This document shows positions 32,548-36,545 of a stretch of DNA of 54,680 nt, piece by piece. The stretch is from Armatimonadetes bacterium JP3_11. GTDB lineage: Bacteria > Armatimonadota > Fimbriimonadia > Fimbriimonadales > GBS-DC. Every line of letters begins with the position of its first letter. The stretch's first letter is position 1. The notes under the pieces were generated by a model that saw only the letters and a list, made by a program, of their open reading frames with translations, ran no database searches and was not told the DNA's origin. The stretch covers positions 1 through 54,680 of the forward strand of contig NKPV01000003.1 of NCBI GenBank assembly GCA_002254605.1, read 5' to 3'. Made by a program: the position numbers and the translations under genes.

Positions 32548-34488
32548 ATGTTGAGTAAGAATGCACGCACTTTTTTGACCGTCGTGGGGTTTGTGTTGGT
32601 GCTGCTGCTCCTGATGCAATACCTGCGTCATTTGCAGCCGATGGGCGCACGGGAGTTGACCTACACCGACCTCGTGAATGCGGTGCAGCAGCGCACAATC
32701 GCCGAAGCGACCGTACAAGGGAATCGGCTCGTGGGGACGCTGAAGGACGGTGCCGCGTTCCATGCAGCCCTGCCCCCGGAAGGCTCCGCACGCGACACGC
32801 TCTATAAACAGATGACCGAAGCGGGAATCCGCCTTAAGTTCACTGAAGACAGCCGCGTGCCCGACTACCTGAGCCAGATGCTGGGCACATTTTTGGTGAT
32901 CTTACTAATTGGAGGGCTGTTCTGGTTCCTCCTGATGCGGTCGGCGCAGGCGGGGAACAATCAGGCGTTCTCGTTCGGCAAAGCGCGCGCCCGCCGCTAC
33001 AACGAGAGCATTCCGCGCGTGACCTTCGACGATGTCGCCGGCGTAGAGGAAGCAAAACAGGAACTGGCGGAAATCGTAGACTATCTCAAGAACACGCAGA
33101 AATATCAGAAACTCGGGGCAAAAATCCCCAAGGGTGTCCTGTTGCTGGGACCGCCGGGCTGTGGCAAGACGCTGCTGGCGCGCGCCGTCGCAGGGGAAGC
33201 CGGCGTGCCGTTCTTCCATATCAGCGGCTCCGATTTCGTGGAGATGTTTGTCGGCGTCGGCGCTGCACGCGTGCGCGACCTGTTTGAGACCGCCAAAGCG
33301 AACCGTCCCGCCCTGATTTTCATCGATGAAATCGACGCCGTCGGACGCCAGCGCGGCACCGGGCTTGGCGGCGGACACGATGAACGCGAACAGACCCTCA
33401 ACCAACTCCTTGTCGAAATGGACGGCTTTGACCCCAATCTGGGGATCATCGTTATCGCCGCCACGAACCGCGCCGACATTTTAGACCCTGCGCTGCTGCG
33501 TCCCGGACGCTTCGACCGCCATATTGTCGTCGACCCACCCGATGTGGAGGGGCGCAAAAAGATTCTGGAAGTCCATACCAAAGGTAAGCCGCTTGCGCCC
33601 GATGTCGACCTGGAGGTGCTTGCCAAGCGCACCCCCGGATTCACCGGGGCGGATTTGGCAAACCTCGTGAACGAAGCGGCGCTCATCGCTGCGCGACGCA
33701 ATAAGACACGCATCAGCATGGAAGAGTTCGAGGAAGCCGTCGACCGCGTCATCGCGGGTCCTCAGCGACGCAATCGCGTGGTGGACAAGCGCGAGCGCGA
33801 GGTGGTCGCCTATCACGAGGTGGGACACGCGATTGTGGGCGAGCTTCTGCCAGAAGCTGAACCCGTGCATAAAATCTCGATCCTGCCGCGGGGGATGGCG
33901 CTCGGCTACACCATCCAGATGCCCGAACGCGACCGGTATCTCTATTCACGCCAAGCGCTGCTGGATCGTATTACCACGATGCTCGGTGGGCGCGTGGCGG
34001 AAGAAATTGTCTTCGGTGAGGTGGGCACAGGGGCGCACGATGACCTCAAACGCGCTACGGAAATCGCCCGCGCTATGGTCACCGAATACGGCATGAGCGA
34101 GAAACTCGGACCGCTCACCTTCGGCAGGCGGCACGGCAACCCCTTCCTGGGACGCGACATTATGGAAGACCGCAACTACAGCGAGCAGGTCGCCTACGAG
34201 ATTGACCAAGAGGTGCGCCGCATCATCGAGGAGTGCTATCAACGGGCGAAGGAAATCCTGACACGCCATCGCGACAAGATGGATCGCATTGTGCAGGCGT
34301 TGATGGAACGCGAGAACCTCTCGCGTGAAGAGTTTCTGGCGCTGATGCGAGATGAAGAGGGCGAAGACCCTGTGCGCACACTCGAGCCTGCCCCAACCGA
34401 GCCCCCCACGGTAGCTCCTGAAACCAGCAACGAAGAGAACACGGCGCCCACCAAACGCCTGCGCCCACGCGCCGCGCCCAGCAGCTAA
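32548..34488 (+). CDS. ftsH: ATP-dependent zinc metalloprotease FtsH
   Basis: [51 protein letters not shown], full AAA and M41 domains. Confidence 0.97.
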
Positions 34489-34489
34489 C

Positions 34490-34523
34490 ATGCGCCCCAG
34501 GGGGAGGGACACCTGGGGCGCAT
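34490..34523. terminator. Perfect 12-bp hairpin directly after the ftsH stop
   Basis: ATGCGCCCCAGG (34490-34501) / CCTGGGGCGCAT (34512-34523), 10-nt loop. Confidence 0.6.
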
Positions 34524-34568
34524 CGGAGAGGGAGGGACAAGATGCTATGACCGCACACTATGGGGTGT

Positions 34569-34584
34569 AGCAACTTTCGTGCCA
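34569..34584 (-). promoter_or_regulatory. Sigma-54 (RpoN) consensus promoter element, pointing toward ftsH
   Basis: Reverse strand TGGCACGAAAGTTGCT matches the -24/-12 consensus TGGCACG-N4-TTGCW. Confidence 0.65.
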
Positions 34585-34622
34585 TTCAATCCACTCCATG
34601 CTATAATTGAGTGGAGGTTAAT

Positions 34623-35408
34623 ATGCCGTTAGAGTTTCGTAGCCGTGAGGACGAGGGGTTCTCGATCCGCCGATTCCTGAAAACTTTCGGTGCGGGCGTC
34701 GCTGTGTTTCTGATCTTCATGGCGATAGGCTACTACCTGATTGGTCCGCGCATCACGGTCTCGGAAGAGGGGCAACTTCGGCTACGCTTCGCCGCACACT
34801 CCAGAGGCGATTCCGTAGCACCACCCGATGCTAACGCTGCAAAGCCGATGCCCAAAGTCGAAGTTTACGAAAAGCTCGCACCCGATGTCACGGCAGGGAC
34901 AAGCGCAATCATCGGCTCGCGTGAGGTCGCACCGTTCGATTACGAACAGTATCAACAGAAACGACGCGAGCGAAAACCGAAGCCGCCCGCGACAATCCCA
35001 CCGCAAGCAGATGCGACGCCAACCGCAACGGACGACGACTATTTTGTACCTGATACCCCACCCGACGAGCCAGTTTCTCCACCGATGGAGCCTGCCCCCA
35101 CCCCAACCGAGCCCCCCACGACCGAGCCTACACCACAGCCACCAACGCAGACAGAAACAACAACACCTCAGCAAAACGCGCTCTATCGGGTACAGGTGGG
35201 AGTCTACGAGAACCGCGAAAATGCCAATCTGACAGCCCAAGAGTTGCGCAGCCGCGGCTTTGAAGCGAGCATCGTGCCCTTTCAACGCGACGGCAAAACG
35301 CTCTATCGCGTGCAGGTACTCGTGACACGCGATAGAGCGAAAGCCGACATGCTCAAGTCGCAGTTAGAAAGCAAAGGCTTCCCCGCAACGATTTTAAACG
35401 CGCAATAG
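34623..35408 (+). CDS. SPOR domain membrane protein
   Basis: TM at the N-terminus, Pro/Thr-rich linker, C-terminal SPOR repeat YRVQVGVYENRENANLTAQELRSRGFEASIVPFQRDGKTLYRVQVLV. TATAAT at 34602-34607 and a GGAGG SD. Confidence 0.88.
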   Translation: MPLEFRSREDEGFSIRRFLKTFGAGVAVFLIFMAIGYYLIGPRITVSEEGQLRLRFAAHSRGDSVAPPDANAAKPMPKVEVYEKLAPDVTAGTSAIIGSREVAPFDYEQYQQKRRERKPKPPATIPPQADATPTATDDDYFVPDTPPDEPVSPPMEPAPTPTEPPTTEPTPQPPTQTETTTPQQNALYRVQVGVYENRENANLTAQELRSRGFEASIVPFQRDGKTLYRVQVLVTRDRAKADMLKSQLESKGFPATILNAQ

Positions 35409-35410
35409 CG

Positions 35411-36310
35411 CTATTTCTCTGCGCAATGTTCGCGCGCAAGCGCACGCAGCTTCGCGAGCGCTTGCTTTTCTAATTGACGCGTGCGCTCACGCGAGAGACG
35501 CTTGACATGACCCGGCGGAATTTCGTTCACATCCAGCCCCAAATGACGATAAATCGCCCATCGCTCGCTCGGGGTGAGATGTTTCTCGATAATATCGAAG
35601 ATTTCCGAAACCCACACGCGCTCCACTGCAACGGCTTCGGGGTCGGCTTCTTCGGGACTGGTTAGCAATCCCCCAAGAGGGGTACTCTGATCATCGCGTG
35701 CTTTATACTCGAGAGAATAGTTCGCACGGGCGTAACGCGATAATCTAATTACCTTGCTAACTGGCATCTCCAAATGCGCAGCAATCTCTTCCTCGGTCGG
35801 CTCCCTACCGAGTGTTGCCCGCAGCTCGTTGCGCGTGCGTTCAATCTTACGCAAGGAGTCGACAGCGTGATTAGGTAGGCGAATCATGTTCATATGAGCG
35901 TCCGCAGCACGTCCTACGCTCTGCCGAATCCAGTGAACCGCGTAGGTGCTGAAACGCAGACCCCGACTCAGATCAAAGTTGCGTATCGCTTTGACCAATC
36001 CGATAGCACCTTCCTGCACGAGGTCTTCCAGCGGTAATCCGGGGCGAACATATCGACGCGCGACGCTAATCACGAGGCGCAGGTTCGACTCGATGAGGCG
36101 GTTCTGGGCGTCTTCATCGCCTGCCTGCGCGCGGTGGAGCAGCTCCAACTCCTCCTCAGGCTGTAAAAGCGGGCGGCGCAATAACTCGCCCCAAATCGAG
36201 TCCAGAGCAGTACCACGCAAGCTCTGCTCGGCTTCAGGCTCCAATTCAGGCGCCTCGTTGCCCCAGCACTCCATTTCAGCTGCTTCCATATAATCTGGAA
36301 CGGAATACAT
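35411..36310 (-). CDS. Sigma-70 family RNA polymerase sigma factor (regions 1.2-4, no region 1.1)
   Basis: NLRLVISVARRYVRPGLPLEDLVQEGAIGLVKAIRNFDLSRGLRFSTYAVHWIRQSVGRA; ERTRQLEKQALAKLR. Confidence 0.93.
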   Translation of the reverse strand: MYSVPDYMEAAEMECWGNEAPELEPEAEQSLRGTALDSIWGELLRRPLLQPEEELELLHRAQAGDEDAQNRLIESNLRLVISVARRYVRPGLPLEDLVQEGAIGLVKAIRNFDLSRGLRFSTYAVHWIRQSVGRAADAHMNMIRLPNHAVDSLRKIERTRNELRATLGREPTEEEIAAHLEMPVSKVIRLSRYARANYSLEYKARDDQSTPLGGLLTSPEEADPEAVAVERVWVSEIFDIIEKHLTPSERWAIYRHLGLDVNEIPPGHVKRLSRERTRQLEKQALAKLRALAREHCAEK

Positions 36311-36350
36311 TCTCACGAATACCCCCGCTGCGTGTTGCTATCATCAATAC

Positions 36351-36367
36351 AGCAACTTTCGTGCCAA
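36351..36367 (-). promoter_or_regulatory. Sigma-54 (RpoN) consensus promoter upstream of the sigma-70-family gene
   Basis: Reverse strand TTGGCACGAAAGTTGCT; predicted TSS near 36340, about 30 nt from the ATG at 36310. Confidence 0.75.
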
Positions 36368-36427: not shown

Positions 36428-36504
36428 TGGTCGGGGCGGGCAGATTCGAACTGCCGACCTCTCCCACCCGAAAGGAGCGCTCTACCATGCTGAGCTACGC
36501 CCCG
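36428..36504 (-). tRNA. tRNA-Pro, anticodon CGG, CCA encoded
   Basis: Reverse strand CGGGGCG TA GCTCAGCATGGTAGAGC G CTCCT TTCGGGT GGGAG AGGTC GGCAGTTCGAATCTGCC CGCCCCG ACCA folds as a cloverleaf. Confidence 0.95.
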
Positions 36505-36515
36505 ACCTGATTTGA

Positions 36516-36545
36516 ATTGTACCCCATCGCGCGCTCAGGCGTCAA
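36516..36545 (-). promoter_or_regulatory. tRNA-Pro promoter
   Basis: Reverse strand TTGACG-N18-TACAAT ending about 11 nt before the tRNA 5' end. Confidence 0.7.

Follow-up and report, generated by a model that had tools for sequence, protein, structure and literature searches.

A predicted sigma-54 promoter before an alternative sigma-70-family factor gene in Fimbriimonadales, and the small regulon to which it probably belongs

Sigma-54 normally works with many activators, each of which chooses its promoters by binding DNA, and NtrC-type activators carry an AAA+ domain with a GAFTGA loop that contacts sigma-54. Departures from this arrangement are known. The single response-regulator activator of Borrelia burgdorferi needs no enhancer upstream (PMC1976401). 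FlgR of Helicobacter and CtcC of Chlamydia were classed as type Ic by Francke et al. 2011, a type that, including proteins without a signal domain, accounts for about 4% of activators (PMC3162934); FlgR is cited in PMC1976401 as acting without an enhancer. In Proteobacteria, work on PrsK-PrsR has described sigma-54 sites before PEP-CTERM genes, a histidine kinase with an NtrC-type regulator, and a link to exosortase and exopolysaccharide (PMC1569441, PMC9850573).

Here we analyse a stretch of 54,680 nucleotides (the window) from a Fimbriimonadales bacterium (Armatimonadota). Its genome of 2.6 Mb is in 359 contigs and is 94% complete, and its closest named relatives are Fimbriimonadales metagenome genomes. 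We consider it very probable that a genuine RpoN promoter in the window places an alternative sigma-70-family factor in a small sigma-54 regulon, run from solution by one activator that has no DNA-binding domain (DBD). Table 1 gives the features discussed below.

Table 1. Features in and around the sigma factor gene, in window coordinates
Feature	Position	Strand	Basis
Candidate sigma-54-driven small RNA: GGUCAUAGCAUCUUGUCCCUCCCUCUCC, then hairpin GCGCCCC..GGGGCGC with loop UCCCUCCCC	34488..34557	-	Conserved core and hairpin
Perfect inverted repeat of 12 bp; terminator-like hairpin belonging to the candidate small RNA or to ftsH	34490..34523	.	Repeat search
Second predicted sigma-54 promoter, ATGGCACGAAAGTTGCT, ftsH/SPOR intergenic, directed away from the SPOR gene	34569..34585	-	Pattern match, conserved spacing
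Sigma-70-type SPOR gene promoter GTGCCA-17-TATAAT, overlapping the second sigma-54 site on the other strand	34579..34607	+	Consensus scan
SPOR-domain protein gene	34611..35408	+	Pfam SPOR, 6.6e-13
Sigma-70-family alternative sigma factor gene, 299 aa, regions 2, 3 and 4	35411..36310	-	Pfam; clade apart from RpoD
Predicted transcription start, ~12 nt downstream of the -12 GC	36340	-	Geometry only
Predicted sigma-54 (-24/-12) promoter of the sigma gene, TTGGCACGAAAGTTGCT	36351..36367	-	Exact consensus, genus conservation, mostly absent in rpoN-less relatives
tRNA-Pro(CGG) gene upstream of the sigma gene	36428..36504	-	ARAGORN
Sigma-70-like promoter TTGACG-18-TACAAT, would transcribe tRNA-Pro	36516..36545	-	Consensus scan

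The sigma factor gene and its predicted promoter

A first-pass annotation of the window had read a full RpoN -24/-12 match on the reverse strand, before a sigma-70-family factor gene starting at the ATG at 36310, and had proposed a cascade from RpoN to this factor. It named rpoN, an NtrC-type activator and the GG/GC dinucleotides in relatives as points for checking. The gene and site assignments hold, and all three points were found in its favour.

The open reading frame spans 35411-36316 from a GTG start or 35411-36310 from the ATG, and the leaders of relatives read ...GCGGGGGT, a short spacer and ATG, consistent with the latter. Pfam places the protein in the sigma-70 family through Sigma70_r2 (PF04542, 1.1e-19) and Sigma70_r3 (PF04539, 4.6e-18), with a weak region 4 (23.3 against a cut-off of 24.1). 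In NCBIfam it lies near RpoD/RpoS-type factors and under every curated cut-off shown, including that of the RpoS model TIGR02394 (197.7 against 378.7); we therefore regard it as an alternative sigma-70-family factor and not as RpoS proper. On a tree, its orthologues group together and exclude RpoD and the other paralogues (support 100/100). Region 4 (35411-35600, reverse strand) is about 4 residues shorter before the recognition helix than in RpoD and the order-level orthologues, which may change -35 recognition by this factor.

The site, read from 36367 to 36351, has zero mismatches against YTGGCACGN4TTGCW (13/13 specified positions), and its GG at -24 and GC at -12, at the fixed spacing, mark it as a predicted sigma-54 promoter. 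The exact consensus occurred four times in 200 dinucleotide shuffles of the window, or about 0.02 expected per window, against one observed. The distance from the site to the ATG is 40 nt, and the geometry of such promoters predicts a leader of about 30 nt.

A close sigma orthologue (76-100% identity) is found in nine genomes of the genus, this one included, and the 17-mer stands 37-52 nt upstream of the match start in 9/9, with both dinucleotides and the spacer invariant. When the nine regions were aligned on the site, the mean majority count was 8.88/9 in its 17 columns, compared with 4.5 over the preceding 60 nt and 4.9-5.75 on the downstream side; the sole variable column, position 8, exchanges one purine for another (R). 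In other genera of the family, 15-16 of the 17 positions match in three genomes (G014, G017, G015) and a fourth (G013) has an exact copy, while other families of the order keep GG/GC with a drifting spacer.

Could the gene instead be driven mainly by sigma-70, with a minor or accidental RpoN match? A consensus scan finds TTGGCA-16-GATGAT (9/12) at 36367-36340, overlapping the sigma-54 site, and read-through from the strong promoter before tRNA-Pro is possible, with no strong terminator seen between the tRNA gene and the site. We nevertheless find this explanation improbable. The -10-like hexamer GATGAT occurs only in this genome and G004, whereas the -24/-12 elements and their spacer are invariant in nine species, and alignment of the nine same-genus orthologues revealed no conserved -10 element around the site; a sigma-70 reading of the 17-mer was rejected because the hexamer is not conserved. 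As for read-through, tRNA-Pro occupies this place within the genus only in this genome and G004, and is absent upstream of the other sigma orthologues. The sigma-54 reading is further favoured by the loss of the site along with rpoN, described below.

RpoN, its single activator and their distribution

The genome encodes one complete RpoN with AID, CBD and DBD domains (TIGR02395, 280.8 bits against a cut-off of 277.35) and one strong NtrC-type activator (PF00158, 1.4e-73 in the genome search, where the next match was 5e-8, and 7.4e-73 in a second search). A second RpoN match of 24 bits, with three internal stops, was dismissed as chance or debris. The other PF00158 matches, at 20-33 bits, a level also seen in archaea and in genomes without RpoN, were set aside as generic AAA proteins.

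The activator is 396 residues long and consists of a receiver, an AAA+ domain with GAYTGA, a lid and then a stop; its homologues have GAYTG or GAFTG. It ends 29 aa past GNVREL, and the prfA frame begins about 20 nt later. For 29 homologues the sequence was readable to the end, and in every one the stop likewise comes 29-37 aa after GNVREL. A Fis-type HTH, the C-terminal domain of NtrC-type activators, needs more residues than this, and HTH_8 was not found in the activator. Because the protein ends just after the AAA+ lid, we assign it to the DBD-less subtype (FlgR/CtcC, type Ic). The first-pass annotation had also supposed that any upstream activator site would overlap the tRNA-Pro gene. This idea can be dropped: with a sole activator that has no HTH, no upstream activator site is expected, so that the tRNA gene, present there in just two same-genus genomes, is no obstacle.

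A histidine kinase gene (PAS-HisKA-HATPase) precedes the activator gene on the same strand. The pair falls short of PrsR and PrsK, the regulator scoring 379.1 against the TIGR02915 cut-off of 502.6 and the kinase 108.7 against the TIGR02916 cut-off of 300. A single DBD-less NtrC-type activator is present in nearly all Fimbriimonadales examined; in this genome it adjoins prfA.

An RpoN-dependent promoter could also be served by an activator that relies on a partner DNA-binding protein, as proposed for BosR at Borrelia rpoS (PMC3037356). The order-wide absence of the DNA-binding domain would leave specificity unexplained if signals must stay separate, which speaks for a partner. However, the 60 nt upstream of the site hold no conserved block in the nine orthologues, and we think this arrangement unlikely.

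Among 61 genomes examined, rpoN is present in 51 and a strong activator in 48, always exactly one; genomes without rpoN also lack the activator. We scored 350 nt upstream of each sigma orthologue and called a site where GG and GC were both present and at least 10 of the 13 consensus positions matched. By this measure a site precedes the sigma orthologue in 40/46 genomes with rpoN and in 1/7 without (Fisher p = 2.5e-4), and in 31/37 and 1/7, respectively, when the own genus is excluded (p = 8e-4), although the test overstates independence since the genomes are related. Loss occurred in at least four lineages. In one sister pair (tree support 100/98), G039 has both rpoN and the site and G041 has neither; elsewhere on the tree G026 and G043, with no rpoN and no site, adjoin G019, G032, G052 and G057, which have rpoN, and in 3/4 the site. 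This pattern runs against sigma-70 drive of the gene. Together with rpoN, the activator and the conserved site, it strongly supports the cascade of the first-pass annotation, in which RpoN would control a sigma-70-family factor.

The correspondence has exceptions. Six genomes with rpoN have no clear site in the 350 nt scored (G018, G032, G046, G048, G049, G053), the single site in a genome without rpoN (G038) is a poor match at the threshold, and G042 has rpoN and the site with no activator detected. In G055, which has no rpoN, the best sigma match falls among RpoD on the tree, and the sigma gene itself appears to be gone. G054 and G055 are small (1.5 Mb) relatives without rpoN, activator or exosortase, in which no true sigma orthologue was found (G054 gave no match), as if the sigma-54 circuit had been lost there as a unit. 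Retention of exosortase does not follow rpoN: G026, G038, G043 and G044 keep exosortase without it.

The proposed regulon and candidate small RNAs

A pattern search of the genome with TTGGCACRAAAGTTGCT returned nine sites with 0-1 mismatch and none with 2. A further eight had 3 mismatches, which is the background level (a control gave 16 at up to 3). When up to 2 mismatches are allowed, relatives in the genus have 4-16 sites per genome and the reversed control 0-3. The genes that follow recur across species and make a coherent set of targets: the sigma gene, a REC-PilZ regulator (Pfam), a polysaccharide export operon, PEP-CTERM proteins and a large secreted protein. The polysaccharide export protein opens a same-strand run of a chain-length/tyrosine-kinase-like ATPase, sugar transferase, epimerase, UbiA, GtrA, exosortase and DUF3485, and many PEP-CTERM proteins downstream of sites end in VPEPASLLALGAGLAGLxGLRRR. 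In this genome a sigma-54 site stands before the same-strand polysaccharide export, sugar transferase, exosortase and DUF3485 genes of contig C56, 21000-29700 (L245).

The spacer AAAG is nearly invariant in the genus sites. Since the spacer is free in the general consensus, the motif is longer than the textbook site, as it would be if the 17-mer were in truth a dispersed repeat, or an operator bound by some other regulator, with only a likeness to a sigma-54 promoter. We give this very little credence. The flanks are unrelated between copies, so the 17-mer is not a dispersed repeat; the usual place of a site is 30-80 nt ahead of a start or in front of a short conserved RNA, in a single orientation; GG/GC persist in other families even as the spacer drifts; and the sites at sigma orthologues vanish with rpoN. 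If these are sigma-54 promoters, as we believe, their unusually tight sequence in the genus, spacer included, would fit a promoter that itself has to hold polymerase, but this link is weak because in other families the spacers are freer although the activator is of the same kind.

Three of the nine sites precede short conserved segments ending in hairpins, which we treat as candidate small RNAs of about 70-120 nt; Rfam gave no match for the five loci holding the three. One of these sites is the second in the window, absent from the first-pass annotation. It has the same 15-nt core as the site at the sigma gene and lies about 1.78 kb from it in at least six relatives (G004, G006, G007, G009, G010, G012). 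Below it, a stretch of roughly 70 nt shows almost no variation in most of these relatives, stem changes in the hairpin are compatible with pairing, and a T-run follows the hairpin in several; in G007 the 5' part differs and the hairpin is kept. A pattern search for this RNA in relatives, written with a four-base gap where the own sequence has three, gave three matches, and its negatives carry no weight. The candidate RNA (34585-34488, reverse strand) has two UCCCUCCC segments and is antisense-oriented between ftsH and SPOR. From these features we infer a sigma-54-driven small RNA with C-rich pairing segments. Sigma-54 bound at this site would cover the -35 element of the SPOR promoter, and could thereby lower SPOR transcription.

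The second candidate RNA (L019, L205, L195, L213, L223), also predicted to be sigma-54-driven, has an invariant GGAGAGCAAAGCCUGCCCUCAUAAGGAGGU core and a CCUCAUAAG/CUUAUGAGG hairpin; its terminator varies strongly in sequence between species, with a hairpin kept there. The third (L018, L207, L193, L214, L222), with the same predicted drive, has a conserved GAGAGGAG followed by a strong GC-rich terminator and T-runs. Neither matched Rfam.

Proposed circuit and comparison with known systems

In the mechanism we propose, the NtrB-like histidine kinase would phosphorylate the sole NtrC-type activator in the cell. The activator, a receiver and AAA+ domain with GAYTGA and no DNA-binding domain, would then come from solution to contact the sigma-54 holoenzyme waiting at about nine promoters of nearly identical sequence, giving an all-together switch. 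Firing of these promoters would turn on the polysaccharide-export/exosortase system, its PEP-CTERM cargo, the REC-PilZ regulator and the three candidate small RNAs. It would also make the second sigma factor, and this factor would in turn open a second gene set. It is tempting to extend this to the order, and we put the chances at about even that its sigma-54 control has collapsed to a single DBD-less activator, which would make the RpoN regulon all-or-none, leave specificity to promoter strength alone, and allow the signal to reach beyond surface-polymer secretion into the rest of the cell through the second sigma factor and the three sigma-54-dependent small RNAs.

Nearly a whole bacterial order appears to rely on a DBD-less protein as its only activator. 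If so, Fimbriimonadales would offer a naturally minimal sigma-54 system, with a complete regulon that can be read from the genome and in which specificity without enhancers becomes testable. The three candidate small RNAs and the second sigma factor would also gain a defined trigger. Our searches of the open-access literature found nothing relevant combining Armatimonadota or Fimbriimonas with RpoN or PEP-CTERM, and did not find the combination of an RpoN-to-sigma step, a DBD-less activator and PEP-CTERM targets.

Similar to the Borrelia burgdorferi Rrp2-RpoN-RpoS pathway, an RpoN promoter here would drive an alternative sigma-70-family gene. However, Rrp2 retains a C-terminal domain in which there is a potential HTH motif whereas the Fimbriimonadales activator has none, the sigma factor is under the RpoS cut-off, the surface targets would be directly under RpoN, and the phylum is different. 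FlgR and CtcC share the receiver and AAA+ architecture without an HTH; unlike them, the activator described here would control a regulon of polysaccharide and PEP-CTERM genes that also takes in a sigma factor and candidate small RNAs. In its targets the system resembles PrsK-PrsR, in which sigma-54 sites precede PEP-CTERM genes and a histidine kinase is paired with an NtrC-type regulator. PrsR, in contrast to a regulator without HTH, binds DNA as a Fis-type protein and has an upstream box, and in the proteobacterial work the sigma-54 link was not extended into other phyla. Our results would tie PEP-CTERM/exosortase secretion to sigma-54 outside Proteobacteria, by way of a regulator other than PrsR.
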